Below, in pieces: positions 3,332 through 24,509 of a stretch of 64,000 nucleotides of DNA. This DNA is from Gemmatimonadota bacterium (GTDB lineage Bacteria > Gemmatimonadota > Gemmatimonadetes > Longimicrobiales > Gaopeijiaceae): positions 1-64,000 of the forward strand of contig JAJCZZ010000063.1 of assembly GCA_029262115.1 (NCBI GenBank). Direction: 5' to 3'. Each line of letters begins with the position of its first letter. The stretch's first letter is position 1. The position numbers and the translations under genes are program-made. The notes under the pieces were generated by a model, which saw only the letters and a program-made list of their open reading frames with translations, made no database searches and was not told where the DNA came from.

Positions 3332-3341
3332 ACCGCGCGCC

Positions 3342-4289: not shown

Positions 4290-4339
4290 GCGTCCTCTCG
4301 AATATGTCGGAATTTTCGCGACCACGTCAGAACAGACAC

Positions 4340-4345
4340 ATAATA
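4340..4345 (-). promoter_or_regulatory. Possible -10 element for the paa operon
   Basis: On the minus strand 4345-4340 reads TATTAT, standing out in GC-rich DNA, about 50 bases before the paaA ATG. No good -35 hexamer lies 16-18 bases upstream, so this is tentative. Confidence 0.3.
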
Positions 4346-4384
4346 GACCCGAACGTTCCCGCCAGGCCAGCCACCTCCGGTCTC

Positions 4385-4882
4385 TCAGACGTCGACGAGG
4401 TCAGGCTCCTCGAGCTGTGACGTACAGGCCGGGCAGCGCGCGGCCCGGTAGGGAATGGTCGACCGGCAGAAGTTGCACTTCTTGTCGTCCGGCTCAGACG
4501 GCGCGTGATCGGTCTTGCCCTTGTCGTCCGGAACGCGATCGCGCAGGCGGTTCATCCCCCGAATCACGAGGAACATCGCAAGGGCCACGATCGTCAGCGC
4601 GAGGCAGTTGTTGATGAAGAGCCCGTAGTTGAGCGTCACCGCGCCGGCCGCCTGGGCCTGCTCGATGGTCAGGTACGGACCGGGCGTGTCGCCCACCGCG
4701 AGCACGAGGAAGAAGTCCTCGAAGTCCACACGCCCGATGGCGAGACCCACCACCGGCATGATGACATCGGTGACCAACGACTTCGCGACCGTCGTGAATG
4801 CAGCCCCGACCGTGAAGCCGATAGCCATGTCGGCCAGATTCCCGCGCAGGGCGAACTTCTTGAACTCCTGGACCAATCCCAA
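4385..4882 (-). CDS. mscL: Large-conductance mechanosensitive channel MscL with C-terminal zinc ribbon
   Basis: About 165 residues. MscL opens under membrane tension to release solutes in osmotic downshock. The first helix is typical ([23 protein letters not shown]), followed by [11 protein letters not shown], a periplasmic loop, and a second membrane helix ([17 protein letters not shown]). Unlike E. coli MscL it ends in a cytoplasmic zinc ribbon with CNFC and CPAC, known in several GC-rich lineages. The start is taken as TTG at 4882, six bases after GGAGAG; a second TTG lies two codons in at 4876. Upstream in-frame sequence overlaps the next gene and is not protein-like. Confidence 0.9.
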
Positions 4883-4920
4883 GCAGCTCTCTCCGGAAGG
4901 GGCGGTGGATGCGGCTTGGG

Positions 4921-5220
4921 TCAGAGCCCGAGAGATGACCGGATCAGCGGAGCAATACGATCCGGCGTCCACGGCGGATCGAAGGTCAACTCGACCTCTG
5001 CCCGCTCGACTCCGTCGACCGCCTCGATGGCGGTCCGGGCATCCTCCACGATCTGACCGGCGACCGGACACATCGGAGACGTGAGCGAGATCCAGGCCTT
5101 TGCGTCGCTCCCGTCGACCTCGATGTCGTAGACGAGTCCCAGCACCACCAGGTTGAGCCCGAGTTCCGGGTCCATGACCGTCTTCAGCGCGTTGCGAACG
5201 TCCTTCTCCGTCACTTCCAT
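4921..5220 (-). CDS. MIP18-family (SufT-like) Fe-S assembly factor
   Basis: 99 residues consisting only of a MIP18/DUF59 domain: [30 protein letters not shown] with the reactive Cys motif, and [10 protein letters not shown] near the end. Such proteins (SufT and relatives) help deliver iron-sulfur clusters. It is distinct from the paaD-type copy at 2897. GAGGTGG five bases before the ATG at 5220 fixes the start over the GTG at 5229. It lies between mscL and the cNMP-binding protein; with the paa cluster nearby it may serve the di-iron enzyme, but that is a guess. Confidence 0.85.
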
Positions 5221-5277: not shown

Positions 5278-6465
5278 TCAGTGCTTCCTGGCGTAGAGAA
5301 CCGAGGTCTCCGCCCGGGCATCGCCCTGGGCCTTTCGTATGGCCCGATGCAGCGTCCTGACCACTTCCCCCGCCGGCTTACCGTGGAGTTGCGCCATCAG
5401 GTCGGCCGCGCCCATGAACAGCCCCGGCGACGCGTGTGACAGGACGAACACAGTATCGCCTGCGCCAACCGAAAACTTCTGGGCGTTGAACCGGAAGCCC
5501 CCCATCATACCCAAGGGTGGTCCGTGCGCACCGAACTCCTCGAAGGTGCCGTCGCGTCGGATGAGACCGGCTGGCACCCGCCCCGCACTGCCCCACTCCA
5601 ACCCGGCTGGCCCGGCCACCAGGACGCCAGCCTCCACGAACTGACCGGTACCCTCGAGCCCGGTGTCGGCCAACGCTTCGTTCGCCGCCGCGAGCAACTC
5701 CGGCACGGTCGACGCCTGCCGCGCTACGGTACGCAGGACCGCGCGGGCGACGCCCACCTGATGGGCGGGAGGCAGCCCTGGAGTGCGCACATCCAGCGTC
5801 ACGAGCGCGCTCCGGCGGTCGGCGAGATGGATCCAGTCCCACATCGAGCCCCCGAGACCCGTCTCCTCCATCGTGGTCCCGGCGGCCAGATCGTACCCGT
5901 CGACCCTCGGCGCTCCGGAAGGCATGAGGGCGCGCTGGATCTCCCGGCTGATCTGGTTGGGGTCCGCGGGTGCCGCTGCCGGTGGAACGGCCAGCGGCGG
6001 CGCCTTGCCGGTGGTAGCGAAGCGAACACCAAGGGCCCGTAGAGCCTTCGACAGGACACGCATCATTCGGAGCGCGATCGAGTCGCCGCCCAGAAGGGTC
6101 TGGAAGTCGTCGCGGGCCACGCTCACCAACTGGGTGTCCGCCTGTGCCCGAGCCGTGGCGGAGCGCGGGGCATCGTTCAGGAGCGCCATCTCCCCGAACG
6201 CCTCACCACCGCGCCGCACGGCCAACTTCTCCTCGCTCCCATCGGGCCGGGTCTTGAGGATCTCGACCGCGCCACTGTAGACGATATAGAACGAGTCGCC
6301 CGGATCGCCTTCCTCGAACAGGACCTCACCCTCGGCCAGCGTCGTTCCCGAGACGATGGAGGCGATCCCGCGGAGGTCCGCATCGGGTAACCCCTGAAAC
6401 AGCTCCACTTTCTGGAGCAGTGCAACGACTTCGTCAGTGGACCAGCCTTGCGCTTGTTCGGACAC
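5278..6465 (-). CDS. cNMP-binding domain fused to a degenerate SpoIIE-like phosphatase domain
   Basis: About 395 residues. Residues ~18-135 form a cyclic-nucleotide-binding (CRP-like) domain with the beta-roll and the phosphate-binding stretch GGEAFGEMALLNDAPRSATA. Residues ~175-395 look like a SpoIIE/PP2C-type phosphatase: REIQRALMP, GYDLAAGTTM, GGSMWDW, GPPLGMM. The metal-binding motifs are altered: the usual GGD is GGS, and the usual TDG is SHA (FVLSHASPG). This suggests a non-catalytic or altered phosphatase domain responding to cNMP. GGAGG six bases before GTG at 6465 sets the start; the frame is open to TTG at 6531 without a ribosome site. A nucleotide cyclase is encoded at 13057. Confidence 0.8.
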   Translation of the reverse strand: MSEQAQGWSTDEVVALLQKVELFQGLPDADLRGIASIVSGTTLAEGEVLFEEGDPGDSFYIVYSGAVEILKTRPDGSEEKLAVRRGGEAFGEMALLNDAPRSATARAQADTQLVSVARDDFQTLLGGDSIALRMMRVLSKALRALGVRFATTGKAPPLAVPPAAAPADPNQISREIQRALMPSGAPRVDGYDLAAGTTMEETGLGGSMWDWIHLADRRSALVTLDVRTPGLPPAHQVGVARAVLRTVARQASTVPELLAAANEALADTGLEGTGQFVEAGVLVAGPAGLEWGSAGRVPAGLIRRDGTFEEFGAHGPPLGMMGGFRFNAQKFSVGAGDTVFVLSHASPGLFMGAADLMAQLHGKPAGEVVRTLHRAIRKAQGDARAETSVLYARKH

Positions 6466-6742
6466 TTCCGGCCTCCATGCCTTGCTGATCGACACGCCAT
6501 CCCGTCGAAACGCCTCTGAGAGAACGCTCAATCTATCGCCGTGCTCAAGAGATCCGCGACTCGCAGTCGGGCGTACCGGGGGCCACGGTCCATCGACTCG
6601 GAGGCGGGTGGACGGCGGGAAATCTTCTTGCGCACGGGACGCCCCAGTGGAACGTTTCTCTTTAGAGGATGGCCTTTCGGCGCTACCCCGGTCCGCCCCC
6701 TGTGTCGCGGACCCGCGCCCGACTCGATCCCACGATTACCGC

Positions 6743-9700
6743 ATGCGCGTTCCCAATCGCGGTCGATTCCTGTTTGCCGTCGCCGCCCTGAGCGGCTTCG
6801 CCTTGACCTCGTGCGTGGACGCGCCCGCTGCTCCCGAGGGCTCGGGCCTCGGCATTGCTCCGTTCCGACTCCAGCCGAAGCTGACGCTCGTGGCCCCGCG
6901 GGCCAGAGTGGCGGGCACCGCCATTGCGGACGCGCTTTCCGACGCCTTCGATCTCGTCGATACCTTCCGGCTGATCGTCTCCCGGGCCGCGACCGGAGCG
7001 GTCCTCCTCACCGCTGAGCGTACCGTCACTCCGGGCCAGGACGAATACGACCTGTCGGTGGAAGCCTCCGGAGTGTCCCAGGGCGAGCAGTTACTGGTGA
7101 CCGTAGTCGCACTTCAAGGCTCCACCGTCCTGTTCGAGTCCGCTCCGATCTCGGTAACCGTGCGGACGACGTCATCTTCAGATCCGCCAGCACCGTTGAG
7201 CGTGCCCCTGGTGTATACCGGCCCGGGCGCCTCGGCCGGCGCGATCGAGGTAGGCCCGGCCTCCCGGATCGTCGCGCCCGGTGGAACCGCGTCCTTCGGT
7301 GCGACCGTGACGAACACGGACGGTTCCGTGATCGCCGGCGTCCCGGTCTCCTGGACGACGGAAGCCGCGAGCGTGGCCACGGTCGACAGGTCCGGCGTCG
7401 CCTCGGGAGTGGCCGAGGGGCTGACCCGGGTGACGGCCACGATTCCGACCGGACTTTCTGCCTCGGCGCTCGTCTATGTGGCCGCGGGTGAGGTGGCCTT
7501 CGAGCGGGGCGGCTCCGTCCTGGTCCGTGACGTCGCCGAAGGCGTGGAGTCCGACCGGGGCGCCGGCGAGCGGCCAGCTTGGAGTCCGGGCGGAGCGGAC
7601 TTGTTCGTCTCGCGTGGCGGGACGGTCACGAACGCTTCCACCGGGGCGTCGCTCTTCGAAGGGACCAGTCCGGCGGTCTCACCGGACCAAAGCAAGATCG
7701 CGGCGTCCGCGAGTGGCTCGCTCGTGTTTGCGAACCTGGACGGCTCTCGACCGACCGTCGGACCGGCCGGGTCGTCGCCGGCATGGCTGTCACCGTCGAC
7801 CCTGGTCGTCGACGGCGGCGGCGTCCAGAGCGTCCGCGCAGACGGGACGGGGCGGACCACCCTGGCGGGCGGATCCGCGATGTGGCCCACCGCGTCGTCT
7901 GGCGGGTCGGTCGCTTGGGTCGCGGACGGAGCGCTCATTGTCGATGGTGGCGCGCCCCTGATGACAGGAGTCGACTCGCGGCCCACGTGGAGCAATAACG
8001 GCTTGTGGTTGCTGGCGTCGGCGGCTGGCGAGTTGCACCTCGTTCCGGTCGACGGGAGCGGCCCCGCCGTGCCGATCGGAGCCACCGGCACCTTTCCAGC
8101 GTGGAAGCGGACCGGGGGAGCTTCGGCAGCCCCCTCGTCGCTCGTTCTCACGGGGCTCCAGCCCGAGAACGCGACGCCCGGCGGCCAGGTCGACATTCTC
8201 GGCTCGGGCTTCGATTGGATCATCCCGGCGAACAACCGCGTTTTCTTCCCCACGCCGGAGGGTGAGGAGGAAGCCGAGTTGATCACCGCCTCAGAGTCGG
8301 CTCTCACGGTCCGTATCCCGGCTCGTCTGGCCGCAGGCACCATCCGGGTCACGACGTTCAGCGAGCAGGCCACGCTGGCGTTCACGCCGGCGCTGGGATC
8401 CGTCGCGATCCACGCACTGACCCCGTGGGGGGCGCCGGTACACGATCTTCAGGTCCGACTCACTCTTGCGAGCACTCTCGTCGCGAACGTGCGGACCGAC
8501 CTCGACGGCAAGGCGGTCATCGCGGACCTGGCGGACGGCACTTATTCGGTCGCGGCTGTGGCCCCGGTGGGCTTCCTGATCACGAGTATCGCCCCCACGG
8601 TGACGGTGGCCGTCGGAACCGCGACTGCCCTCGACATCACGGTAAACGCGCTCGTCCAACTCCTGACGCTGTCGCCCGAAACGCCGGAGACGACGGTCGG
8701 GGAAGCGGTCGAGGTGTCGGCGACGGCGGTCGACATCAACGGCGACGAGATCCCCCAGTTCGACCAGATCCAATGGGTTGGGCTGAACCAGGGTGTCCTG
8801 GCCTCCGGAAACGGGTTGACCGGCACGCTCGTGGGCCGGTGGCCCAGCGGGTCCGTCGGAGGCAGTCGGTTCCGGATCTTCATAAATGGTCAGATCTTCG
8901 ACCGGGCCGCGACGGTGCGGTCCCACATTACGGGCGTCGTACGCAAGCAGTCGTCGACCGCCAACACCGAAGCACAGATGTCCGCAGCCGCCACCGCCAC
9001 GCAGTCGGTGGATGTGCCTGAAGTCGGGGCATCGGTGGAGCTTCTGAAGGACGACGTCATCATCGCGCAGACGTCGAGTGGCTCCGCCGGCACGTTCCGT
9101 TTCGATGGCCTTCTGGCCGGCACCTACGTGCTTCGTGTGGCCAATCTTTCGGATGAAGCGATCGCGGACCCGGTGACGGTCGGGCTCCATCCCGGCAACC
9201 CGGTCGGTAGCGCAAGCCTGCTCATCCGGCCCAAAGCGCCCTCCGCTCAGGGCGACCTGATCGCGATCAACGATTGGAACGCCTGGGACTCCAACCGGAA
9301 CCCGGCCGCACTGATTCAGACGCTCGTCGCCACGGCCAACAACAGCGGGACGAAGGTCGTGTGGTGGTGTGGACGGCAGGCCAACCCCTCGGGCAACTCC
9401 ATATCCACCGGGATCTGCCAGTCGTCAATCAGCAGCGATGGGAGCGGGCAGTTCCAGGGCACCCGGGACGCCATCACGGCGTCGGATTGGGGCTTCTCGG
9501 TCGACTTCCAGACGCCTCTGCAGACCATCGACGGCGACGTCCGGGTCTTCTGGCTCTGGACGCCAACGGAGCAGCTTACCAACGCGGAAGTCAATGTGCT
9601 GAAGGCGTTCGCGTCCCGCGGCGGGCGGATCATCTTCAACGCCGACTACCAACCGGACTGGTATACCGCCGACCATCACGAGAACATCGCCACGCGCCTC

Positions 9701-10045
9701 TTCGGTCAACTCGGCACCGGCATCACGAGCGTGGGCACCCTCATATCAGGCAACACCGGTACGGCCGCGGATCCCAACCACCCCATTGCCCAGGCGCTTG
9801 CCGCGCAAGACATCACCAGTATGAACTTCGCGGCGCCGGGTGACTTCACGGTGTCGGCGTCCGCGGTACCGATCATCGTCTCGGGCTCGTCCATTCTCGT
9901 CGCCTACGCCCCTGTGACGGATGTGGCGCCCCTCCCGCTCACGGCTCCGCCGGCCTCGATCCGGGCCCTCGCGCCACCACCACCGGTACGGATCAAGCCG
10001 CCGTGCCTGCCCGGTACGGTGTGCGGGACTTCGTCCAGCAAGTGA
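6743..10045 (+). CDS. Giant multidomain surface lipoprotein (Ig-like, propeller, IPT/TIG, carboxypeptidase-regulatory domains)
   Basis: 1100 residues. The N-terminus is a lipoprotein signal (ALSGFALTSCVDAP). Domains in order: a beta-rich segment (~35-155), a bacterial Ig-like (BIG2) domain around residues 170-245 (IVAPGGTASFGATVTN), a TolB/WD-like propeller of short repeats (~250-455), an IPT/TIG domain (~465-545), carboxypeptidase-regulatory-like domains (~555-630 and ~750-830), and a C-terminal region (~835-1050) with GGRIIFNADYQPDWY that resembles gatase-like alpha/beta folds. Probably outer-membrane anchored and facing outward; the ligand is unknown. The start at 6743 is chosen for the signal peptide; the frame is open to 6437 but that overlaps the divergent gene. 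A strong terminator follows. Confidence 0.75.
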   Translation: MRVPNRGRFLFAVAALSGFALTSCVDAPAAPEGSGLGIAPFRLQPKLTLVAPRARVAGTAIADALSDAFDLVDTFRLIVSRAATGAVLLTAERTVTPGQDEYDLSVEASGVSQGEQLLVTVVALQGSTVLFESAPISVTVRTTSSSDPPAPLSVPLVYTGPGASAGAIEVGPASRIVAPGGTASFGATVTNTDGSVIAGVPVSWTTEAASVATVDRSGVASGVAEGLTRVTATIPTGLSASALVYVAAGEVAFERGGSVLVRDVAEGVESDRGAGERPAWSPGGADLFVSRGGTVTNASTGASLFEGTSPAVSPDQSKIAASASGSLVFANLDGSRPTVGPAGSSPAWLSPSTLVVDGGGVQSVRADGTGRTTLAGGSAMWPTASSGGSVAWVADGALIVDGGAPLMTGVDSRPTWSNNGLWLLASAAGELHLVPVDGSGPAVPIGATGTFPAWKRTGGASAAPSSLVLTGLQPENATPGGQVDILGSGFDWIIPANNRVFFPTPEGEEEAELITASESALTVRIPARLAAGTIRVTTFSEQATLAFTPALGSVAIHALTPWGAPVHDLQVRLTLASTLVANVRTDLDGKAVIADLADGTYSVAAVAPVGFLITSIAPTVTVAVGTATALDITVNALVQLLTLSPETPETTVGEAVEVSATAVDINGDEIPQFDQIQWVGLNQGVLASGNGLTGTLVGRWPSGSVGGSRFRIFINGQIFDRAATVRSHITGVVRKQSSTANTEAQMSAAATATQSVDVPEVGASVELLKDDVIIAQTSSGSAGTFRFDGLLAGTYVLRVANLSDEAIADPVTVGLHPGNPVGSASLLIRPKAPSAQGDLIAINDWNAWDSNRNPAALIQTLVATANNSGTKVVWWCGRQANPSGNSISTGICQSSISSDGSGQFQGTRDAITASDWGFSVDFQTPLQTIDGDVRVFWLWTPTEQLTNAEVNVLKAFASRGGRIIFNADYQPDWYTADHHENIATRLFGQLGTGITSVGTLISGNTGTAADPNHPIAQALAAQDITSMNFAAPGDFTVSASAVPIIVSGSSILVAYAPVTDVAPLPLTAPPASIRALAPPPPVRIKPPCLPGTVCGTSSSK

Positions 10046-10225: not shown

Positions 10226-11125
10226 TTGGTTTCTGACGAAAACGTCGACGACTTCCCGGTGAGCCTACGCTGCTGGGGCACCCGAGGCTCGATTCCGAGC
10301 CCCGGACCGGCCACGGCACGGTATGGGGGGAATACGACCTGCCTGGAAGTACGGGTAGAGGGTCGTCGATTGATCTTCGATGCGGGGTCAGGTATCCGCC
10401 CCCTCGGTCACGATCTGATGCGGGACGGCGCGGTCCTCGATACTCCGATTTTTCTGACCCACTTCCATTGGGATCACATCCAGGGATTCCCGTTCTTCGT
10501 GCCGCTCTATGTCCCGGGCACCGAGCTTCGGATCCTCGGCCCGAAGCAGAAAAACATCGACGTTCGCAGCCTCTTCGCTGGGCAGATGGGCCCCATCTAC
10601 TTTCCGGTGCCGTTCAGCGCGGTCGCGGCGAACCTCTCCTTCGATCATTTGAACGAGGGCACATGGGAGGGGCACGGGATCACGTTGCAGACGATTCGGG
10701 TCAAACATCCGTCGTATGTGATCGGGTATCGGATCGAGGCGGGCGACACCGCGATCTGTTTCATCCCCGACAATGAAATCGATGGCGATAGCTACGAGGT
10801 GGAACCCGACTGGCGCGATCGCCTGGTCGAGTTCGTCGGCGACGCCGACATCCTCATCCACGATTCGATGTACACCGAAAGGGAGTATCCCCACCGACCC
10901 GGCTGGGGACACTCCACGTTCGAGCAGTCGCTTCGACTCGCCGAAGATGGTGGAGTCGATCGCTTGCTCTTCTTCCACCACGACCCGGAACGCTCGGACG
11001 ACGAGCTCGACGAGATCGTGAACCGAGTGCGAGACGACGCAGCGGGGCGAGGGTGCTCCGTTGAGATGGAGGCGGCCCGAGAGGGCGTGCACTACGCCCC
11101 CGCAGAACAAGGAGAACTGACGTGA
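10226..11125 (+). CDS. Metallo-beta-lactamase-fold hydrolase
   Basis: 299 residues. The metal site motif HFHWDH is at residues 79-84, followed by later ligands in VKHPSYVIGYRI, FIPDNEID, ILIHDSMY and FFHHD. The N-terminal RCWGTRGSIPSPG with NTTCLEV and DAGSG is typical of the cyclic-phosphodiesterase/RNase Z-like branch of the fold. No signal peptide, so cytoplasmic. The start is TTG at 10226 with GGAG seven bases upstream; no better start exists. Its stop overlaps the GTG of the caspase gene (GTGA), so the two are probably co-translated. Hydrolysis of a cyclic nucleotide is a fair guess given the cyclase two genes on, but not shown. Confidence 0.8.
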   Translation: MVSDENVDDFPVSLRCWGTRGSIPSPGPATARYGGNTTCLEVRVEGRRLIFDAGSGIRPLGHDLMRDGAVLDTPIFLTHFHWDHIQGFPFFVPLYVPGTELRILGPKQKNIDVRSLFAGQMGPIYFPVPFSAVAANLSFDHLNEGTWEGHGITLQTIRVKHPSYVIGYRIEAGDTAICFIPDNEIDGDSYEVEPDWRDRLVEFVGDADILIHDSMYTEREYPHRPGWGHSTFEQSLRLAEDGGVDRLLFFHHDPERSDDELDEIVNRVRDDAAGRGCSVEMEAAREGVHYAPAEQGELT

Positions 11126-13002
11126 GACGTTTCGGATCGCTTGTGACCATACTGACTGCTGTGCCCCTGCTCGCATTCGGACCCGGCGAACGTGTCGCGG
11201 GAACGCATTGGGCGCTAATGATCGGCATCAGCGACTACACGAACTTCGACGACGTGGAAGGGGGGGATCTCCCTGGCGCTCAGTTCGATGCGATGGGAAT
11301 GCGGGACGTTCTCCTCCAGAAGTACGACTTCCCGGAAGCGAACGTGCGTACGCTGCTCAACGGTCAGGCGACCCGAGCCGCCATCCAGGAGAGCATCACC
11401 GGTTGGCTGACCGAGAACGCCCGGCCCGGCGACAACGTCGTGGTGTTCTTTGCCGGTCATGGTTCTCAGATGTGGGACGAGAACGGCGACGAAGACGACG
11501 GATTGGACGAGACGATCGCTCCCGCGGACGTGTCTCCGAACAGCACGGACTTCGACATCTCCGACGACACGTTCGGAGAGTGGCTGTCGGCGTTGCCGAC
11601 CGACAACGTGGTGGTGTTGCTCGACAACTGTAACTCGGGCACCGGCACCCGCGACGTGACGCCGTTCTCGCGCTCCCGTGAGCTCGGTCGCGATGTCAAC
11701 GCGCTTTCGAAGCCTGCTTCGGCGGCCCGCCGCGCGCTCCCCGGCCAGGTGGACGAAACGGGCTTCGACGCGGGCCACAGCCGGGTCCTGGAGTTGGCGG
11801 CGGCACAGCCGCATCAGGCGGCCGTCGATGCTTTTTTCCCGGGGGGGGATGGCGAGGAGTCGTTCCACGGGGGCGCGTTCACGACCTTCCTGGTCCGCCA
11901 ACTCTGGAGGGCCCCCGCCGATGCTACGTATGAAGAGGTCTTCCGCGATGTCCACGAGGCTCTGAAGCGGAATCGCTTCCAGCAGGACCCCCATCTGTCC
12001 GAAGACGTGTCGCTCAAGGACATGTCGCTCTTCTTCGTGGAAGGCGCAGAGCCCATGGAGGCCGACGCCGCCCTTCCGGTCGTGTCCTCGGACGGTGGAA
12101 CCGCTCGCCTCGGCGGCGGCCAGACGCTCGGGATCACGACGGGCTCGGTGTTCGAGGTCGGGACGGCTCGACTCGTGGTCGAGACGGTCGAGCAGACCGC
12201 CAGCACCGCCAGGGTGTCCAGGGGTGCCGTATCCGCTGGGGATCGAGCCAAGCTCATTGGGTATCGGTACCCGAGCGTTCCGCTTCGCGTGAACGTAGCA
12301 GGCCTCGACTCGGAGTCGGCGGACGCTCTCACGAGCGCTGTTTCCGAGAACCAGCAGGTCGACCTCGTCCGCGAGGACGGTGCCTTCAGCCACCTGTTGA
12401 TCCGGCGTCGCGGGACGGAACTCCGGGTGGTCGGTTCCGACGGGTTCCTGCGCCACGAGGGCCTACCGGCTGGGAGTGCCGGTGCCGCGGATCTGGCGTC
12501 GATCCTGAGCGCGGAGGCCGCCGCGAAGCAGTTGGCCGACATGGAGAACCCCGCCCAGCCGTTCGGGGTGGAGCTACGGCTGGTGGACGGACGGACGTCG
12601 TTCGGGGTCGGCGAGGAGATCAGCTTCCACGTGACCAGCCATCGTGACGGTTACTTGACACTCGTGGATCTGGGCACGGACGGGACCGTTGCCGTGCTCC
12701 TTCCCAACGGACAAGCCCCCTCGATGCAGGTGAAGGCCGGGCAGGAGGTCTCGTTCCCCGCCGCCGACGCAGGCTTTGCGCTTCAGGCGCTCCCACCGGC
12801 GGGTCGCGGTATGGTGCGGGCGTTCGTCACCCCTCGGCCGCTCGAGATTCGAATCCCGGCGGGCGAAGACTACGCGACCGGGGGTGCCGAACTCGCGGGC
12901 TGGATCGCCGATCAGGTGCGTGCCGCCGCCGGCGAGATCGACGAAGCGGTGCGCCTCGACAGTTGGGCCACGTCCTCGCTGGTGTACGACATCCACAACT
13001 GA
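11122..13002 (+). CDS. Exported caspase-like (C14) protease with DUF4384-type domain
   Basis: 626 residues. Residues 1-27 are a signal peptide. Residues ~28-310 form a caspase/metacaspase domain: WALMIGISDY, then the catalytic His in FFAGHGSQ (His113) and catalytic Cys in LLDNCNSG (Cys170; the family more often has DxCHSG). Residues ~345-480 are less clear; ~480-575 look like DUF4384, a domain often attached to bacterial caspases. It starts with GTG at 11122 behind AAGGAG and overlaps the upstream gene. Expected location is periplasm or cell surface. Orthocaspases cut after basic residues; the target is unknown. Followed after 54 bases by the CHASE2 cyclase. Confidence 0.85.
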   Translation: MRRFGSLVTILTAVPLLAFGPGERVAGTHWALMIGISDYTNFDDVEGGDLPGAQFDAMGMRDVLLQKYDFPEANVRTLLNGQATRAAIQESITGWLTENARPGDNVVVFFAGHGSQMWDENGDEDDGLDETIAPADVSPNSTDFDISDDTFGEWLSALPTDNVVVLLDNCNSGTGTRDVTPFSRSRELGRDVNALSKPASAARRALPGQVDETGFDAGHSRVLELAAAQPHQAAVDAFFPGGDGEESFHGGAFTTFLVRQLWRAPADATYEEVFRDVHEALKRNRFQQDPHLSEDVSLKDMSLFFVEGAEPMEADAALPVVSSDGGTARLGGGQTLGITTGSVFEVGTARLVVETVEQTASTARVSRGAVSAGDRAKLIGYRYPSVPLRVNVAGLDSESADALTSAVSENQQVDLVREDGAFSHLLIRRRGTELRVVGSDGFLRHEGLPAGSAGAADLASILSAEAAAKQLADMENPAQPFGVELRLVDGRTSFGVGEEISFHVTSHRDGYLTLVDLGTDGTVAVLLPNGQAPSMQVKAGQEVSFPAADAGFALQALPPAGRGMVRAFVTPRPLEIRIPAGEDYATGGAELAGWIADQVRAAAGEIDEAVRLDSWATSSLVYDIHN

Positions 13003-13056
13003 TCGAAGCGTCCCGCGGGTCAACGCTCCGATCCAACTGCGCGCCGAGGTGACTGA

Positions 13057-15297
13057 GTGAAGGCGAAGCGACTCCTCGCCCTCGGTCTGGTAGTCACCGT
13101 TACGGTGGCGCTCGCGCTGCTGGCGGACGCGGTGGGGGGGCTCACCGGCATCGATCAACTCCGGTATAAGACGCTCGATTGGCGCCAGAACACCACCGTG
13201 CAGTCGTTCCAGCCGGGCGTCGGTACCGACGAGAGCGACATCACGCTCGTCTTTTTCGACGAGTTCGCGGTGACCGATCCCGAGTTCGGTTGGGCGTGGG
13301 AGCAGCCCTTTCCCCGAGCGCACATCGCGAACGTCATCGACGTGGTGGCAGCGGGTGGCGCGCGCACGATCGGTCTCGACGTCTATCTCCAACTCATGTA
13401 TCCGCGCCTCAACGAGATCGACGGCGGAGACGATCTCCTGGTCGACGCCATCGAACGGGCCGGCAACGTGGTGCTCGTGGGCCCCGTGCTTCAAACCTCG
13501 AACGGACCACGGTTGGGTCCACCCGATCCGGCCTTCGGGGCGGTCGCGGCGGACGTCGGCGCCGCCGAGCTCCCCACCGCGTTCGAGACCGTCCGGGACG
13601 GCACGCTGGCGGTCCGGTCCGGAGTCAGGCTCGAGCCCTCCTTTTCTCTGGCGCTCTACGGGCATGCGCGGAGCATCGACGTGGACGATCTCCTGCGCCG
13701 GTCCCGGCGGTGGGGTCGCATTCCGCTTCCCGGCCTGCCGTCGAGCCTGGGCCAGGTCCCGGACGACTGGTGGGAGCAGGGCACCGCGTCATCCAGCGTG
13801 ATCGTACCATTTCCCATCCGGTACCACGGCCCGCCATCCAGCTCCGACGGCTTCGATCCGATCGGGACGTTCGCCGCCGTCTCGTCCGCAAACGTCGACC
13901 TGACCGCCCTGACTCAGCCGGAGCTCTTCGAAGACAAGATCGTCCTGATCGGTTCCGGCTTCCACGACTCCGACAAGTTTCGAACCGCCTTCTTCGGTCA
14001 GAAAGCTCCCCCCGCCGAAGAGGGGGGTGACGCCCGGACCTATGAATGGATGTACGGAGTGGAGGTCCACGCCAACGCGCTTCAGACGATGCTCTCCGAG
14101 GAGTACGTCCGACCGCTCGGAGAGCGGGCGGAGCTCCTGGTCCTGTTCCTGGCCGGCCTGGTGGTCGGCGTCGTCGTGTTCTCGCAAGGCGCCGGCTGGG
14201 GTGGCGTGGCCACGGCGGCGGTGATCGGGAGCCTCATGGTCCTGGGCTTCTGGACCTGGGCCGGAGAAGCGTACGGCCCCGGTGGTCGGTGGTTCGGTCT
14301 CGGGCGGCCCTACCTCTGGTTCCCGATCGTGACGCCCGCGCTCGCGACCCTCCTCTCGTACGTCGGCTCGGTAGCGTACGTCTCCGTGGTGGAAGGGCGC
14401 GAAAAGCGCTTCATCAAGGGCGCCTTCAGCAAGTACGTATCGCCCGAGGTGGTTGAAGAGATCGCCGAGAACCCCGGCGCCCTCCAACTCGGCGGTCAGA
14501 AGCGACCCCTTACCATGCTCTTCTCCGACCTGGCCGGCTTCACCACGCTGTCCGAAAGGATGGATCCGCAGGATCTGCTCGCCCATCTCAACGAGTACCT
14601 GAGCGAGATGACCCAGATCGTCATGGATGAAACGGGCACCCTCGACAAGTACATCGGCGATGCCATCATGGCGTTCTGGAACGCGCCGAGGGCCGTGGGC
14701 GACCACGCGGACCGAGGGCTCAAAACCGCGATCCTGATGCAGCGGAAAATGGGCGAACTCAACGAACGCTGGATGTCGGCCGACCCGGAGGCCGAAGAAC
14801 TGGTGGTGCGCATCGGTGTGAACACCGGGACGGTCGTCGTGGGCAACGTCGGCGGAAAGGAACGGTTCGATTACTCCGCAATCGGCGACGCCGTCAATCT
14901 GGCCGCCCGTCTGGAACCGGCGAACAAGACCTACGACACGCTGGTCATGGCCTCGGAGTACACGATGGACGCCGCCGATCGATCCGCGTTCCGGGTCCGG
15001 GAGCTCGACCGGATCGCCGTGAAGGGAAAGGAGCGGCCCGTCACGGTGTACGAAGTTCTGGAGATGGCTGGTGCGCGGCTGGCCGACCATCGGGAAAAGG
15101 CGTTCGAGCACTACGAAGCCGGCCTGGCCGCTTACAAGAATCGCGACTGGACGCTCGCGGCGACCTATTTCGAGGCAGCGTTGACCGCCGATCCCCAGGA
15201 CGGCCCGAGCGCCGTGTATCTGGCCCGCGCCCGGGAATATCAGACCGACCCACCACCCGCCGATTGGGATTTCGTGGTGCGACGGACGTCGAAGTAG
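13057..15297 (+). CDS. CHASE2-sensor class III nucleotide cyclase
   Basis: 746 residues. One N-terminal membrane helix (~5-25), a large extracytoplasmic CHASE2 sensor (~30-350), three further membrane helices (~358-378, 385-405, 420-445), then a cytoplasmic class III cyclase domain (~480-660). Metal-binding Asp residues are visible in FSDLAGF (Asp491) and YIGDAIMAF (Asp535), the Lys before YIGD suits ATP, and AIGDAVNLAARLE is conserved. The C-terminal ~70 residues look TPR-like. It should convert an outside signal to cAMP. GTG start at 13057, with GAGG seven bases upstream. A cNMP-binding protein at 5278 is a possible receiver. CHASE2 cyclases next to FecR-like proteins are known elsewhere. 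Confidence 0.9.
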   Translation: MKAKRLLALGLVVTVTVALALLADAVGGLTGIDQLRYKTLDWRQNTTVQSFQPGVGTDESDITLVFFDEFAVTDPEFGWAWEQPFPRAHIANVIDVVAAGGARTIGLDVYLQLMYPRLNEIDGGDDLLVDAIERAGNVVLVGPVLQTSNGPRLGPPDPAFGAVAADVGAAELPTAFETVRDGTLAVRSGVRLEPSFSLALYGHARSIDVDDLLRRSRRWGRIPLPGLPSSLGQVPDDWWEQGTASSSVIVPFPIRYHGPPSSSDGFDPIGTFAAVSSANVDLTALTQPELFEDKIVLIGSGFHDSDKFRTAFFGQKAPPAEEGGDARTYEWMYGVEVHANALQTMLSEEYVRPLGERAELLVLFLAGLVVGVVVFSQGAGWGGVATAAVIGSLMVLGFWTWAGEAYGPGGRWFGLGRPYLWFPIVTPALATLLSYVGSVAYVSVVEGREKRFIKGAFSKYVSPEVVEEIAENPGALQLGGQKRPLTMLFSDLAGFTTLSERMDPQDLLAHLNEYLSEMTQIVMDETGTLDKYIGDAIMAFWNAPRAVGDHADRGLKTAILMQRKMGELNERWMSADPEAEELVVRIGVNTGTVVVGNVGGKERFDYSAIGDAVNLAARLEPANKTYDTLVMASEYTMDAADRSAFRVRELDRIAVKGKERPVTVYEVLEMAGARLADHREKAFEHYEAGLAAYKNRDWTLAATYFEAALTADPQDGPSAVYLARAREYQTDPPPADWDFVVRRTSK

Positions 15298-15356
15298 AAG
15301 ATTGGAAGGAGGGGATGCGCCCCGCGCACCCACGGACGACGTACTTGGAGACGAAC

Positions 15357-16283
15357 ATGGTGAAGCATCTACCGCTCGCCGCGATGGTCGCGGCCGCGAT
15401 CGCCACGCCGCTGGCGGCTCAGGAAGACGCGGCCGCATTGGTCATGCGCCTATCCGGGCAGGTCCAGGTCCGACAGGGGGGTGCCGCCGCCGCTCCGGCT
15501 CGGCTCGGCGACCGTTTGATTGCGGGCGCCCAGATCATGCCGGAGGACGGCAGCCGCGCGATCCTGATCACGCGGGCGGGCGCCACGATGAACGTCACCG
15601 AGAACACGACGGTATCGGCCCCGTCGAGCGGTGGGAATCCCGACCTGTTCGATCGGGCCATACGGACGCTCGCGCAAGCGGCGTCCAGCGACGCGAGGAC
15701 CGCCGGCGGCCGTCAAGGGATGATCCGGCCGATTCCGGGTGAACCGGTTCTGGTGGCGCCTCGAAACGGACTGATGGTGGCGACCACGCGCCCGACGTTC
15801 CGGTGGATGGCCGTGGACGGTGCCGACGGCTACACCATCCAGATCCGCCGTGTGGATGGGGGTCGACCGGTGCGTTTCGATACGGGCGTTTCGTCGGACT
15901 GGACCCTCCCCGCAGATGCGCCAGGCCTCCTCCCTGGCGCCACCTACGCCTGGACCGTCGCCCCGTCCATGGGGCGCCCGACACGGGAACAACAGTTCAG
16001 GGTCATCAGCGGGGACGAGTACTCGGAGCTCGAGGCCGGCTTCGCCGAGGTGAGCGCGATGGGCGTCGATCCCATGACCGACGGACTCTTCCTGACGGCC
16101 ATCATCTACCGGGATCTCGGGTTGGTCTACGACGCCCACGCGGCCCTGAAGGGGTTGGCGAGCGCGGGCGCCGGGGAGTTCACCGCGGATCTCTACCTCC
16201 TCGAAGGTGAGATCCTCAACCAGCTCGGTCGGGCCGAGGAAGCGACGGCCGCGTTCGACAAGGCGGACGCCCTGCTCCGATGA
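15357..16283 (+). CDS. Exported FecR-like protein with TPR-like C-terminus
   Basis: 308 residues. A signal peptide with an AQ cleavage point (PLAAQ, ~20) is followed by a FecR-like beta domain (~25-110: VMRLSGQVQVRQ, ARLGDRLIAGAQI, GSRAILITRAGATM), an Ig/Fn-like segment (~140-225), and a helical tail that ends like a TPR (QLGRAEEATAAFDKADALL). FecR-like domains commonly sense or tether periplasmic ligands and recur beside CHASE2 cyclases. GGAG lies six bases before the ATG at 15357; the frame is open upstream to 15264 into the cyclase gene. Its stop overlaps the next start as ATGA (16280-16283). Confidence 0.8.
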   Translation: MVKHLPLAAMVAAAIATPLAAQEDAAALVMRLSGQVQVRQGGAAAAPARLGDRLIAGAQIMPEDGSRAILITRAGATMNVTENTTVSAPSSGGNPDLFDRAIRTLAQAASSDARTAGGRQGMIRPIPGEPVLVAPRNGLMVATTRPTFRWMAVDGADGYTIQIRRVDGGRPVRFDTGVSSDWTLPADAPGLLPGATYAWTVAPSMGRPTREQQFRVISGDEYSELEAGFAEVSAMGVDPMTDGLFLTAIIYRDLGLVYDAHAALKGLASAGAGEFTADLYLLEGEILNQLGRAEEATAAFDKADALLR

Positions 16284-17905
16284 CGAAGACGCCTTCGACG
16301 GAGGAGGCGCTCCGCGCCGAACTGGAACAGGCCCGCTCGGAGCTACAGCAGCTCAACAAGATCGGGATGGCGCTCATGAGCGAGCGCGATCCGGAGCGGC
16401 TGCTCAACCTCATCCTGACGCAGGCACGTAAGCTCACGAACTCGGACGCCGGAAGCCTGTATCTCGTCGAGCCCGGCGACGACGGGGGGGAGCGGCTGCA
16501 CTTCCTGCGCTCTCAGAACCACACGTTACCCGACCTTCCGTCGCCGAACTTCACACTCCCGATCGACGAGAGCAGCATTGCCGGCTACGTCGCGTCGTGC
16601 GGTGAACCGCTCGTTCTCGACGACGTGTACGAGATCCCGGCTCACCTGCCGTTTTCGTTCAATAAGGCGGCTTTCGACGAGAAGTTCGGGTATCGGGCCA
16701 AGTCGATGCTGGCGGTGCCGATGACCGACCATCGAGACAAGGTGGTCGGAGTGGTGCAGCTCATCAATCGGAAATCGGACCCGGAGGCGGTCGTCCGCGA
16801 TGACGCCGAAGCCGACCGATCCGTGCTGCCCTACTCCCCACGCGATGTGTCACTCGTCCACTCTCTCGCGGGGCAGGCGGCCGTTTCGATCGAGAACGGC
16901 CGTCTCTATCAATCGATAGAGAATCTGTTCGCGGGCTTCATCAAAGCGGCCGTGACCGCGATCGACCGCCGGGACCCGACGACCTCGGGCCACTCGGTTC
17001 GTGTAACCGAACTCACCTGCGACACGGCCCGGCTGATCAACGAGCGGACGGAGGGCCCGTTCGCCGACGCGCACTTCACGGCGGACCAGATGAAGCAGCT
17101 ACGCTACGCCGGACTGCTGCACGACTTCGGTAAGATTGGCGTGCGCGAGGAAGTCCTCGTCAAGGAGGAGAAGCTACCGCCGGTCCTCCGTGCCCAGGTG
17201 GCGGCCCGTTTCGCGCTGATCCGGAAGACCCTCGAGGCCGACGCCTACCGGGCGCGAGCCGAGTGCCTGGCAGCCGGTGGAGGATCGGACGGGGCTGACG
17301 ACGCGATCGAGGCCATTGATCGACAGTTGAAGGAAGACATCGAGCGACTGGACCGCTACTGGACGGCCGTGCAGGAGGCGAACGTCCCGAGGGCCATGGA
17401 CGAGGAGGCTGCCGGCATTCTCGAGGAGATCGGCACGCAAGTCTTCAAAGACGATCTCGGTGAGGACCGCCCGTATCTGGCGCCTCACGAGTTGCACTTC
17501 CTGAGCATCAAACGTGGAAGCCTCGATCCGGACGAGCGCAAGCAGATCGAGTCCCATGTGATCCACAGCTACGACTTTCTGCTCGATATCCCGTGGACCG
17601 ACGACTTGTGTCGGATTGCCGAGATCGTGCGCGGCCACCACGAGAAGCTGAACGGAAAGGGATACCCCGATGGCGTGACCGGCGACCAGCTCTGCCTGGA
17701 GACGCGTATCATGACCGTGTGCGACATCTTCGACGCGCTGACGGCCAGCGACCGACCGTACAAGAAGGCCATGCCGGTGGAGAAGGCACTCCAGATCCTA
17801 CGTTGGGAAGCCGAGGAAGGCGCTTTGGACGCGGACATTGTGGAGCTGTTCGCGGAGAGCAAAGTATACGAAAAGGTCCTGGCCACCGACTGGCGGGAGC
17901 TGTAG
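16280..17905 (+). CDS. GAF + HD-GYP domain signalling phosphodiesterase
   Basis: 541 residues. A short coiled coil (~5-30), a GAF domain (~35-210) and an HD-GYP domain (~220-535). HD is at His281-Asp282 (LLHDFGKIGV), the HHE at 453-455 and the GYP at 461-463, so the residues that hydrolyse c-di-GMP or related cyclic dinucleotides are present. About 130 residues of helical sequence are inserted between the HD helix and the second half of the domain (roughly 295-430), more than usual. No membrane segment, so cytoplasmic. Coupled to the FecR-like gene by ATGA overlap. Last gene of the run from 10226. Confidence 0.9.
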   Translation: MTKTPSTEEALRAELEQARSELQQLNKIGMALMSERDPERLLNLILTQARKLTNSDAGSLYLVEPGDDGGERLHFLRSQNHTLPDLPSPNFTLPIDESSIAGYVASCGEPLVLDDVYEIPAHLPFSFNKAAFDEKFGYRAKSMLAVPMTDHRDKVVGVVQLINRKSDPEAVVRDDAEADRSVLPYSPRDVSLVHSLAGQAAVSIENGRLYQSIENLFAGFIKAAVTAIDRRDPTTSGHSVRVTELTCDTARLINERTEGPFADAHFTADQMKQLRYAGLLHDFGKIGVREEVLVKEEKLPPVLRAQVAARFALIRKTLEADAYRARAECLAAGGGSDGADDAIEAIDRQLKEDIERLDRYWTAVQEANVPRAMDEEAAGILEEIGTQVFKDDLGEDRPYLAPHELHFLSIKRGSLDPDERKQIESHVIHSYDFLLDIPWTDDLCRIAEIVRGHHEKLNGKGYPDGVTGDQLCLETRIMTVCDIFDALTASDRPYKKAMPVEKALQILRWEAEEGALDADIVELFAESKVYEKVLATDWREL

Positions 17906-18103: not shown

Positions 18104-18850
18104 TCAACCTCCTAGCCGCGCCACTCCCTCCCTCGCGGCGGCATTTCCACGGCTGGCTGCCGCCTGGTACCAACGAAGCGCGGCAGCTCTGTCGGCGGTG
18201 ACGCCGCGCCCCGCCTCGTACGCCTCGCCCAGCCGCAACTGCGCGATCGCGTCGCCCGCCTCCGCTGCCGCGCGCCACCACCGAGCCGCGAGCGCGTGGC
18301 CCTGCGCAACCCCACGACCGGCGCGGTAGGCGTTGCCGAGGTTGTGCTGGGCAAGGACGTGTCCTCGTTCGGACGCGGCCCGGTACCATTCTGCCGCCTC
18401 CACCGGATCGCCTTCGACGCCGAGGGCCTCGTCGTACACCGTTCCCATCAGGAACATCGCTTCTGGATGGCCTCGATCCGCGAGAACACGCACGGAGTCG
18501 ACCACATCCGCCGCCAACGCTACGGCCAAGGCCGAGTCCCGGGGAAAGCCCATTCGTCCGCGCGAGTGCGCTCGTGCGACCCACATCCGGCCCAGCAGAT
18601 CTCCATCGGAACGGGCACTGAGGAGCAAGCGACGAGCCTCCTCGTCGTCGACTCGGCCGGCCACGCCCGTATACAGCGCGATGGACTTGGCGAGGTCCGG
18701 GTGCAGCCGGGCGGCTGGAGAAGCGCAGGCAGAGGCGGAGGCAACGATCAGTATCCAGGCGCCTACGCCATTAGGACGCCTGGGACGCGGACCAGAGATC
18801 CGATCAAGATCTCGGCGTAGCATCGAGAGCGAGGCGGTGCGTGAAAGCAT
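18104..18850 (-). CDS. Sel1-repeat lipoprotein
   Basis: About 248 residues. A basic start and a lipobox (SASACASP, ~45) precede a Sel1-like repeat array (~115-245): GHPEAMFLMGTVYDEALGV, GHVLAQHNLGNAYRAGRGV, GDAIAQLRLGEAYEAGRGV, then AAALRWYQAAASRGNAAAR. Such solenoids bind other proteins, often in the periplasm. GGAGG upstream supports the ATG at 18850; the frame is open to 19018 but would cover the neighbouring gene. It converges on the HD-GYP gene; the 198 bases between hold no clear gene or terminator. Confidence 0.85.
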   Translation of the reverse strand: MLSRTASLSMLRRDLDRISGPRPRRPNGVGAWILIVASASACASPAARLHPDLAKSIALYTGVAGRVDDEEARRLLLSARSDGDLLGRMWVARAHSRGRMGFPRDSALAVALAADVVDSVRVLADRGHPEAMFLMGTVYDEALGVEGDPVEAAEWYRAASERGHVLAQHNLGNAYRAGRGVAQGHALAARWWRAAAEAGDAIAQLRLGEAYEAGRGVTADRAAALRWYQAAASRGNAAAREGVARLGG

Positions 18851-18905
18851 GACGGATATTCCTCCAGACCCGGTCGGCCGTGCAAGTCGAGCGCGCCTCA
18901 ACGCG

Positions 18906-19457
18906 CTACCCGGCCCCCTCCAGCCGCCACGTCCCCACCACGGACCCGACGCTGTCCTGCGGGATATCGAACGGAGCGCACGTCCACGTCCCTTCGGCCG
19001 ATGATGGCCCGGACACATGACCAGTCATGTGTCCGATCGCCTCGTAGAACGGCACGCCCGTCCCGACGTTGATGGGCGTGACCAGCTCCAGGCTGTCGCC
19101 GCCGAGCAAGCGTATGTGGTTCTCACGGCTGAACAAGAAGGGCTTGAGCGACATGCCCGACCCATCAGGCTGGAGCACATCGCGCGCGACATCTCCGCCC
19201 CCCTCCGTCACATAGACGCGCCCGCTGGCTTCCAGGCGTTCCGAGCCGTCCCATGTGAACACCATGTCCATCGCACACTGGATGGTCAGAGAGCCCGCCG
19301 TCCCCGTCGCTTCACCCCGCAAGGTATACTGGGCTGGCGGACGAAACGTCGTCTCTTCCGGGAGGGTCGGATCGCTCCCGCACGCCGCGGCCGCCGCGAG
19401 CACCAGGGCAATCGCACCGACCGAGCAGCATCGCAGACCTCCCCCCGTGGACACCAT
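18906..19457 (-). CDS. Predicted lipoprotein, unknown function
   Basis: 183 residues. Clear lipoprotein signal (VLAAAAACGSDP). The mature part is mainly beta-strand (QYTLRGEATGTAGSLTIQC, MDMVFTWDGSERLEASGR) and ends VGTWRLEGAG, like a small barrel or lipocalin-type fold, but no family is certain. It is followed on the same strand by the Sel1 lipoprotein after 55 bases, so they may share a transcript. 19458-19595 upstream shows no gene. Confidence 0.75.
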   Translation of the reverse strand: MVSTGGGLRCCSVGAIALVLAAAAACGSDPTLPEETTFRPPAQYTLRGEATGTAGSLTIQCAMDMVFTWDGSERLEASGRVYVTEGGGDVARDVLQPDGSGMSLKPFLFSRENHIRLLGGDSLELVTPINVGTGVPFYEAIGHMTGHVSGPSSAEGTWTCAPFDIPQDSVGSVVGTWRLEGAG

Positions 19458-19595
19458 TCCCGTCCCCCCGTTTCAGCCAGTGACGCTGGACCTCCGAGTC
19501 CCGAGGCCCGTCATCCCGAAAACGACTGAATACCGGCGATGTGACAAGCAGCGCGACCCAGCTCACTGCCACACTGGCCCGCCACTCCGGGAGTG

Positions 19596-21995
19596 TCAGG
19601 CCGCTTCCGCCGCTGTTGAGGCCGCACGCGGCCCGGGTTCCATACCACGCAGCGCCAGAGCCGAGAGCGCGTAGAGGCCCGCGCCGATCCAGAGGTTGAC
19701 GCGGATGCCCACGTGGATGGCAATGAACACCGCCAGCGCGGACGCCACCACGCCCATGACGCCGTTGAGGGCCCAGAACCACGGCGTCTGGGTATCCGAG
19801 GTCCGGCTGGCCAGGGCCATTCCCGTCGGAAAGAAGAAGCCCAACAGAACGCCCACGGGAAAGATGACGGCCACGCTGACGACGATGCGCGCCGGCCGGG
19901 ACCACGGGGCCACGGCGTCCGCCATGATGGGAAGCACCACGGTCAACCCTGCCACCGCTACGGCCGTGACCATCGGCCACGCCCAACGCCAAGGAGCCCG
20001 GTCCAGCGGCAACCGCTCACTCAGGAAGCTCCCCACGCCCGTGCTCAGGATGATGGTGAAGAGCAGGACGCCAAGGGCGTACACGGGGTGGCCCAGGACC
20101 AGCGACAGCCGCTGGATCAGCCCGATTTCCACGAGCATGAACGCCGCACCTATCACGGAGAAGTAAGCGGCACCGGCCCACTGATGCCGGCCCCGGAGGC
20201 CGCCACCCCTGAGCAGGAGCGGCACCACGATGGTCAGCCCCGCCACGACGATGAGCGAGGCCAGCAACCCTACCAGCACCCCGGTGGCAATGAGGTTACC
20301 ACGAAGCACGCCCCCGCGCAGTTCCCGGGCCCCGTCGACCATGAAGAGTTCTCGGAGCGCGTCCCCCAGGCGGAGCATGTTGAAGAAGTATGGTCGGTCG
20401 TCCGTGGGCGGCCGCACGTCCAGGTCGGCATCCGCCGCCTGGGCCTTGATGTCGGACATAGAACGGGCGCGCAGGAGGCCTGCCAGAAGCGGATCGGAGG
20501 GAGGGGTTCCCGGGAAGAAGGTCAGGGAGTATCGCTTCGCGTTCGCCACCTCTTCCAGGGTGCCAAGGTCCCGGGGCGTGAGGGGCGATCGGGCCATCAG
20601 AAGCGTGGACAGGCGGCTGGTCGTGACCAGCGCCAGATGGTCCTCGGGCCGCTCGACCCCCCGCCCAAGGAGCGTCGCCACCGCCAGGCTCACGACCCGG
20701 GCCGTTTCGCCGAGGCTCACCGGGTCGTGCCACCGGGATACAGTGAAGATCCCGTCCGGGCGGAGGCGGTCCAGGATGTGGCCCCACCCCTCCAGGGTAT
20801 ACAGACCACTCTCCGTATGGGCGTAGGCCCCCACGCCCGTCGCTGCCCAGGTATCGATCATCGACATCTGGATGAGCGCGAATTCCTCCCTGGAGCGGGC
20901 GAGATAGCTCCGCGCGTCGTCGACCACGAAGCGAACGCCCGGCCTGTCGGCCAGCCCCGCGAACTCCCGCAGGTCTTCCTCGAGGATGTTCACGAAGACC
21001 GGGTTCACCTCGACGCCGACAACCCGCTCGTGACCGAAGGACACCGCCGCCTGGACATCACGGCCGCCGCCGACCCCGATGATAGCCGCACCTCCCGACG
21101 GCCGCAGGAAGTACGCGACGTTGGTCACGTCCCAGGCAAGGTGCGAGACATCCTCGTCGGTGCGGTAGGGGCCGAGCGACGTTCCGGCCTCGCCGTCGAT
21201 GTTCATATAGAACTGACGGAGCACTGTAGCCGGTGCCGCGGGACTCGCCCCCCAGTACCAGGGAGAGGCATCCACCGGCCGGTACACGACCACTCGCGAA
21301 AAGGAGTTCCAGCGGTCCAACACCTCGAGTTCCGGAACCGCGCGCCTTCCCTTGACGGTCGTCGGAGCAATGGGGAGCACGCCGATCATGCCAAGCACCG
21401 TCAGGACGCTGAGCAGGAGGAGCGCCGCCTGTCCCGACCGGGCGCTACCCGCCCCGCCTCCCCGCGCGTATGCCACGGACGCCGCGCCCGCGAAGGCCCC
21501 ACACAGTAGGATCAGGCTCGGCACGTCCATGACCTCGAGCGCGCCCAGCACGAGCAGACATCCAGTGGCCGCGCCCACCAGGTCGGCGGCGTAGACCCGG
21601 GCGACCGGCGCCGCAGAGCGGGTCAGAACCAGGGTCAGGGCAATGCCCGCATAGTAGTAGGGCAGGGCGCACGCCAGGGTCACGGCCAGAAGCCCCACCA
21701 CCATCAGGACCGGGTCCGCCAGCGTGATCGGCACCCGCGTGAGCACCACCAGCGTCAGCGGCACCACGAGGGCGAACAGCGCGGACGCGTCGCTGGCGCG
21801 CCGGAGCACGTCGGGAGATCCGCGCTCGGGGGCCCGGAGGTAGACGTTCACCGCCCCGGCGGTCATGCCCAGCATGGCCGCAGAGATGGCGAAGAAGGCC
21901 AGGTGGTACCACGTGACCACGCTCAGCAGCCGCGTGAGCGCGATCTCCAGCGCAAGCGACGCGAACGCGACCAGGAACGTACCCGCGTAGATCAG
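19596..21995 (-). CDS. Polytopic membrane protein with spermidine-synthase-like methyltransferase domain
   Basis: About 799 residues. N-terminal membrane block (~1-200; SLALEIALTRLLSV is the family hallmark), a soluble Rossmann domain resembling spermidine synthase (~270-500: IIGVGGGRDVQAAVSFG, VVGVEVNPVFV, FVVDDARSYLARS), and a C-terminal membrane block (~560-790). The substrate is unknown; many such proteins are not true polyamine synthases. The frame is open upstream only as shadow of the caspase gene and contains no ATG, GTG or TTG near the first membrane helix. The best start is CTG at 21995, overlapping the caspase stop as CTGA. Third gene of the leftward unit from 24438. Confidence 0.75.
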   Translation of the reverse strand: MIYAGTFLVAFASLALEIALTRLLSVVTWYHLAFFAISAAMLGMTAGAVNVYLRAPERGSPDVLRRASDASALFALVVPLTLVVLTRVPITLADPVLMVVGLLAVTLACALPYYYAGIALTLVLTRSAAPVARVYAADLVGAATGCLLVLGALEVMDVPSLILLCGAFAGAASVAYARGGGAGSARSGQAALLLLSVLTVLGMIGVLPIAPTTVKGRRAVPELEVLDRWNSFSRVVVYRPVDASPWYWGASPAAPATVLRQFYMNIDGEAGTSLGPYRTDEDVSHLAWDVTNVAYFLRPSGGAAIIGVGGGRDVQAAVSFGHERVVGVEVNPVFVNILEEDLREFAGLADRPGVRFVVDDARSYLARSREEFALIQMSMIDTWAATGVGAYAHTESGLYTLEGWGHILDRLRPDGIFTVSRWHDPVSLGETARVVSLAVATLLGRGVERPEDHLALVTTSRLSTLLMARSPLTPRDLGTLEEVANAKRYSLTFFPGTPPSDPLLAGLLRARSMSDIKAQAADADLDVRPPTDDRPYFFNMLRLGDALRELFMVDGARELRGGVLRGNLIATGVLVGLLASLIVVAGLTIVVPLLLRGGGLRGRHQWAGAAYFSVIGAAFMLVEIGLIQRLSLVLGHPVYALGVLLFTIILSTGVGSFLSERLPLDRAPWRWAWPMVTAVAVAGLTVVLPIMADAVAPWSRPARIVVSVAVIFPVGVLLGFFFPTGMALASRTSDTQTPWFWALNGVMGVVASALAVFIAIHVGIRVNLWIGAGLYALSALALRGMEPGPRAASTAAEAA

Positions 21996-24438: not shown

Positions 24439-24509
24439 TCCATCCTCCTGTAATCGAACCGGCAATTCGGACGAACGCCTCCGCTGGAGGCGCGAAAGGC
24501 GGACACCTC

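Follow-up and report, generated by a model that had tools for sequence, protein, structure and literature searches.

The window analysed here, a stretch of 64,000 nucleotides from a Gemmatimonadota genome of 5.45 Mb in 110 contigs, carries a run of five genes on one strand encoding a metallo-hydrolase (MBL), a caspase (CASP), a CHASE2-cyclase (CYC), a FecR-like protein (FECR-like) and a GAF/HD-GYP protein (Table 1). The open reading frame coordinates bear out the layout proposed in a previous sequence-only reading, with a 4-base GTGA overlap at the MBL/CASP junction, a 4-base ATGA overlap at the FECR-like/HD-GYP junction, and gaps of 54 bases between CASP and CYC and of about 60 bases between CYC and FECR-like. 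Pfam supports four of the five family labels given in that reading, the exception being FecR, as no match to PF04773 was obtained with whole proteins up to E = 0.1 or with N-terminal fragments up to E = 10. The model of FECR-like (mean pLDDT of 86.6) combines a small beta domain with one of Fn3 type and has a TPR-like helical end; its Foldseek matches correspond to Fn3 and a weak profile match to MtxA is observed. The FecR label is a weak one, then, and denotes resemblance only. Judged by sequence, the caspases, the FecR-like protein and the CsgG-like proteins are exported, whereas MBL, HD-GYP and the phosphatase are not.

Table 1. Features of the locus, in coordinates of the window.
Feature	Position	Strand	Start	Description
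CNMP	5278-6531	-		cNMP-binding domain and SpoIIE/PP2C-type phosphatase; divergent from the operon
Surface protein	6743-10045	+		Large, lipoprotein-like; lipobox LTSC; Big_2 and carboxypeptidase-regulatory-like domains
MBL	10226-11125	+	TTG	Cytoplasmic metallo-hydrolase; Pfam Lactamase_B_2; motif THFHWDHIQG
CASP	11122-13002	+	GTG	Pfam Peptidase_C14 and C-terminal DUF4384; N-terminal export signal
CYC	13057-15297	+	GTG	N-terminal TM, periplasmic CHASE2, more TM, predicted class III adenylyl cyclase, C-terminal TPR
FECR-like	15357-16283	+	ATG	Exported; signal peptide, small beta domain, Fn3-type domain, TPR helices
GAF/HD-GYP	16280-17905	+	ATG	Pfam GAF and HD_5; cytoplasmic, predicted cyclic-di-nucleotide phosphodiesterase
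CASP2	21992-23749	-		Second exported caspase; CsgG/GNA1162-like N-terminal domain; convergent with the operon
CSGG1	23746-24465	-		Exported CsgG/LpoB-like and TPR protein; 4-base overlap with CASP2
CSGG2	24593-26065	+		TPR and CsgG-like lipoprotein; lipobox LGAC
Exported protein	26067-27206	+		Probable outer-membrane beta-barrel by sequence impression; conserved beside CSGG2

Full-length CYC orthologues, defined by a score above 500 bits, are present in 9 of 59 relatives and in 14 of 395 genomes sampled across the phylum, for a total of 17 genomes distributed in three families of a single order of Gemmatimonadota. All five genes lie on a single contig in the order MBL-caspase-CHASE2 cyclase-FecR-like-GAF/HD-GYP in 10 of the 17, and six show the same order up to the limit of their contigs. 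G044 is rearranged within about 10 kb, with HD-GYP and MBL sharing a strand while caspase-cyclase-FecR occupies the other. Protein identity among the relatives with conserved order is about 40-75%, and the 4-base overlaps recur in 7 of 11 loci for MBL/caspase and in 9 of 11 for FecR/HD-GYP. Moreover, among the 59 relatives, CASP, the FecR-like gene and CASP2 each accompany CYC in all nine of its genomes and are found in a single genome besides these (Fisher p = 8e-10, not corrected for phylogeny). Since the order is kept, the overlaps are conserved and the genes co-occur, the association goes beyond chance, and the synteny in relatives rules out a fortuitous adjacency. The five genes are a true conserved operon and form the one coupled unit that had been claimed; a scattering of these genes, named beforehand as the observation that would contradict the claim, was looked for in the 17 CYC genomes and not seen.

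The locus occupies a constant chromosomal position flanked by PaaA and PFK, and the PaaA proteins, 78-87% identical in relatives, mark one ancestral site. In the conserved upstream flank, an MscL channel is encoded together with two genes of PaaA/PaaC type (window 1872-5071, minus strand). A mobile or plasmid origin was discarded, with constant flanks and neither a FECR match nor a full-length cyclase match on plasmids. Also, what looked by eye like a tRNA T-arm upstream of MBL failed confirmation.

The five genes stand as part of the unit, but its limits had been drawn too small, leaving out a cNMP-binding phosphatase and a CASP2/CsgG pair. The phosphatase (CNMP) matches Pfam cNMP_binding (4e-26) and SpoIIE (3e-12), has an intact phosphate-binding-cassette motif, and adjoins MBL divergently in nearly every relative seen, being also beside MBL in G004 and G053, both devoid of CYC. 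It would likely be the receptor of cAMP. The surface protein encoded between them is a variable member, present in G007, G003, G389 and G008 and not seen in other relatives. On the other side, an orthologue of CASP2 occurs in 17 of 17 CYC genomes, a contig edge leaving just its end in G389. It is not always directly adjacent, being about 9 kb (G305) and 16 kb (G352) downstream on the same contig in two genomes and on another contig in some others. The CASP2/CsgG genes are located between HD-GYP and phosphofructokinase in the window and in relatives. The N-terminal domain of CASP2 resembles CsgG and GNA1162 by fold, in a whole model of low confidence, and in G044 the CsgG-like gene and CASP2 are fused into one protein of 797 residues (L058, G044:C99, 7850-10243, minus strand). 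The exported protein conserved beside CSGG2 has no Pfam match. In the window, HD-GYP is separated from CASP2 by a gene with Sel1 repeats and by one for a large membrane protein that weakly matches a methyltransferase (18104-21995, minus strand). In several relatives CASP2 directly follows HD-GYP with nothing between.

Two second-messenger modules, one for cAMP and one for a cyclic dinucleotide, had been proposed, and the catalytic residues agree with both, the second being of c-di-GMP type. CYC matches Guanylate_cyc (9e-26), and class III adenylyl cyclases are recognised by two metal-binding Asp, a purine-selecting Lys plus Thr/Ser/Asp, and the transition-state Asn and Arg; the corresponding D, K, D, S/T, N and R are invariant in 18 of 18 loci. 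The Lys and Ser/Thr are those of adenylyl cyclases, and CYC is predicted to produce cAMP. Its CHASE2 domain (Pfam 3e-26 over 25-370), as found in sensor proteins, is accompanied by hydrophobic segments at 3-32, 354-382, 384-402 and 424-442. For the second module, both the window and 14 relatives retain the HD and HHExxxGxGYP motifs of HD-GYP phosphodiesterases, and the genome of the window contains seven GGDEF matches. A cAMP-binding GAF in the HD-GYP protein was considered and rejected, since the full NKFDE cNMP motif was not found in this domain; for that reason, the connection of cAMP to c-di-GMP is one of co-location only. MBL shares the PF12706 fold and the [T/S]HXHXDH signature with the Rv1339/YhfI/CpdA atypical class II cAMP phosphodiesterases (PMC9293780). 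It differs from them in scoring 30 bits on NCBIfam NF041851, whose cut-off is 400 bits, its activity being predicted only. MBL resembles RNase Z more than this phosphodiesterase model, although at 81 bits against a cut-off of 293 an RNase Z identity was dismissed, and it falls under every curated NCBIfam cut-off. MBL is a candidate cyclic-nucleotide phosphodiesterase, which would probably remove cAMP.

Comparison among relatives divides the locus into two layers, a cytoplasmic one (phosphatase, MBL and HD-GYP) and an envelope one (caspase, CHASE2-cyclase, FecR-like and CASP2). The cytoplasmic layer is found alone in some genomes: in G004, G033, G040 and G056, MBL neighbours HD-GYP and the caspase, cyclase and FecR-like genes do not intervene. 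HD-GYP abuts phosphofructokinase in G004 and G033. The occurrence of phosphatase-MBL-HD-GYP sets lacking the CHASE2 cyclase indicates that the cytoplasmic layer does not need CYC. The envelope layer is gained or lost mostly as a block, with complete loss inside single genera (G006, G005 and G034 compared with their congeners). Partial losses have left a FecR scrap in G020 and, in G014, a 31-residue scrap of the cyclase 3' end preceding FecR-HD-GYP (L042, G014:C78, about 8170-8262); being 90% identical to its congener G305, the latter corresponds to a recent deletion scar. Apparent caspase remnants in L046 and L047 proved spurious, lying on the wrong strand and aligned to a linker region. Gene content, order, overlaps, sequence-based compartments, catalytic residues, co-occurrence and linked losses are all direct observations.

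The autonomy of MBL-HD-GYP in these four genomes and the placement of the two groups on opposite strands in G044 are what would be expected if the cytoplasmic MBL/HD-GYP and the envelope caspase/CHASE2/FecR-like genes shared a promoter and a place rather than a pathway. Nonetheless, the window and its relatives have caspase-cyclase-FecR interleaved between MBL and HD-GYP, an arrangement that is conserved with 4-base overlaps at both junctions, and a cyclase beside a cNMP-binding neighbour constitutes a natural link; such a loose neighbourhood is unlikely.

In CASP, the catalytic dyad corresponds to H113 and C169, the His-Cys pair of the Peptidase_C14 p20 domain, and its predicted export signal is short, with no clear cleavage site. 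Both residues are kept in all the visible p20 domains except that of G001, a genome of the window's genus, where a full-length frame carries a Cys-to-Ser change at the catalytic position (DQSHSGA; L043, G001:C93, 1780-3645, minus strand). This genome lacks the cyclase and the FecR-like gene, although a dead caspase together with a lost cyclase is a single case that could be a coincidence. Also, the G002 caspase (L055, G002:C31, 1-567, minus strand) shows an acidic pocket DGLRQT in place of DGLDET, which suggests an altered substrate choice.

The sequence-only reading had viewed the protease as the output of the system. On such a scheme, CHASE2 and the FecR-like protein would sense the envelope, cAMP and c-di-GMP would change, and the exported caspases would act as effectors through their expression, in line with the co-transcription that the overlaps make likely and with caspase dyads intact in every CYC-bearing locus with a visible p20. 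However, both caspases carry export signals, so cytoplasmic cAMP cannot act directly on them, the enzymes being outside the compartment of the messengers. Moreover, the conserved block has no DNA-binding cAMP regulator, and a related caspase/CHASE2/FecR-like cluster exists in Bacteroidota without a cyclase. This output is not supported by the comparison and is judged quite unlikely. The joint gain and loss of the envelope block and the cyclase-free Bacteroidota cluster instead place the caspases with the envelope sensor.

The full operon was found only in Gemmatimonadota in a caspase-alignment scan of named genomes, where several loci elsewhere have a CHASE2 gene less than 10 kb from a caspase, a count that is biased because these loci were found via caspases. 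In Bacteroidota (L100, L119, L124 and L143, as well as L148, which is truncated), the gene order runs from an exported caspase to CHASE2 and then to a FecR-like protein that is also exported. Here, the CHASE2 protein has no cytoplasmic enzyme and no cyclase exists in the cluster. The FecR-like proteins are similar in length to FECR-like, and most of these loci have further caspases close by. Between the two phyla, FecR-like proteins match by profile over 248 columns (probability of 88%, E of 2.8e-6). In Alteromonadaceae (L142), a weak CHASE2-cyclase match accompanies an exported caspase with DUF4384 and, by eye, a CsgG/LpoB-like lipoprotein. Exported caspases, CHASE2 and the FecR-like/Fn3/TPR protein may compose a new periplasmic signalling complex conserved between Bacteroidota and Gemmatimonadota, with CHASE2 under the control of proteolysis outside the cytoplasm. 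The Gemmatimonadota would have wired this complex to cAMP and c-di-GMP, a proposal that is less likely than not. An exported protein resembling a trypsin-type protease by eye also occurs in three Bacteroidota loci (L124, 12194-13738; L143, 12212-13663; L148, 18076-19608), sitting between the caspase and CHASE2 or beside CHASE2.

Caspases in the vicinity of a nucleotide cyclase also recall CBASS/Pycsar-like logic, where a cyclic nucleotide signal would trigger suicide by the caspase in response to phage or in cell death. PADLOC caspase and Pycsar-cyclase models do match, and presence is patchy, with losses within genera. Nevertheless, the Pycsar matches extend only over shared domains, of class III cyclase or cNMP-binding type, the CYC residues are of purine type rather than those of a pyrimidine cyclase, and no TIR or TM effector, the other component of Pycsar, was found among the genes examined. 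In addition, the CHASE2 and FecR-like parts are periplasmic, the caspases are exported, and the constant position between the PaaA and PFK flanks reveals no movement between islands. A defence role is very improbable.

Exported caspases, a membrane cyclase sensor, and periplasmic plus cytoplasmic parts indicate that the locus probably reports on the cell envelope, in agreement with the envelope-sensing theme suggested originally. Our preferred reading, which we hold tentatively and at slightly less than even confidence, is a two-layer transenvelope locus with the caspases on the input side and cAMP and c-di-GMP downstream. According to this scheme, the two exported caspases, one of which (CASP2) has a CsgG-like domain and is paired with a CsgG-like protein, would work together with the periplasmic FecR-like/Fn3/TPR protein and the CHASE2 domain of the membrane adenylyl cyclase. 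The caspases would act by processing or licensing some envelope or sensor protein, which the FecR-like protein and CHASE2 would then read, a placement on the input side that we infer from their compartment and from the cyclase-free Bacteroidota clusters. Control of CHASE2 by this envelope complex would set the production of cAMP by the cyclase. The divergent cNMP-binding/SpoIIE phosphatase would read this cAMP and the MBL hydrolase would probably remove it, while the GAF/HD-GYP protein, likely co-transcribed, would lower c-di-GMP and link the state of the surface to lifestyle. The second messengers, the direction of the signal, the substrates of the caspases and of MBL, and the receptor role are those that we infer for the locus.

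Most of these families are known, and their combination seems not to have been described, no paper joining CHASE2, FecR and caspase being found in the literature searched, which was not the whole literature. The closest arrangement is the BiofilmReg operon of Burkholderia (response regulator - LysM/FecR protein - CHASE2 histidine kinase - DUF4136), in which the gene for an exported FecR protein is likewise the operon neighbour of one for a CHASE2 membrane sensor, and where, as in this locus, the periplasmic parts vary fastest (PMC5192318). In contrast, its output is a histidine kinase/response regulator, with no caspase, cyclase, HD-GYP, MBL or CsgG-like genes. Cyanobacterial orthocaspases with DUF4384 share with CASP this domain and the p20 HC dyad, and CHASE2 is reported inside some of them (PMC7475262). 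Here, the caspases are exported, beside CHASE2 rather than fused to it, and linked to a cyclase operon, whereas the model for those enzymes is one of cytosolic death signalling. CSGG1 and CSGG2 (by Pfam) and the CASP2 N terminus (by fold) resemble CsgG/LpoB-type envelope proteins, from which they differ in being fused or coupled to a caspase, and no curli genes were seen in the gene predictions surrounding the operon. Bacterial caspases possibly acting outside the cytoplasm would represent an unusual setting for these proteases. Moreover, the recognition target of CHASE2 has been described as unknown (PMC5192318), and the conserved caspase-CHASE2 cluster offers testable partners for both the substrates of the caspases and the input of CHASE2.
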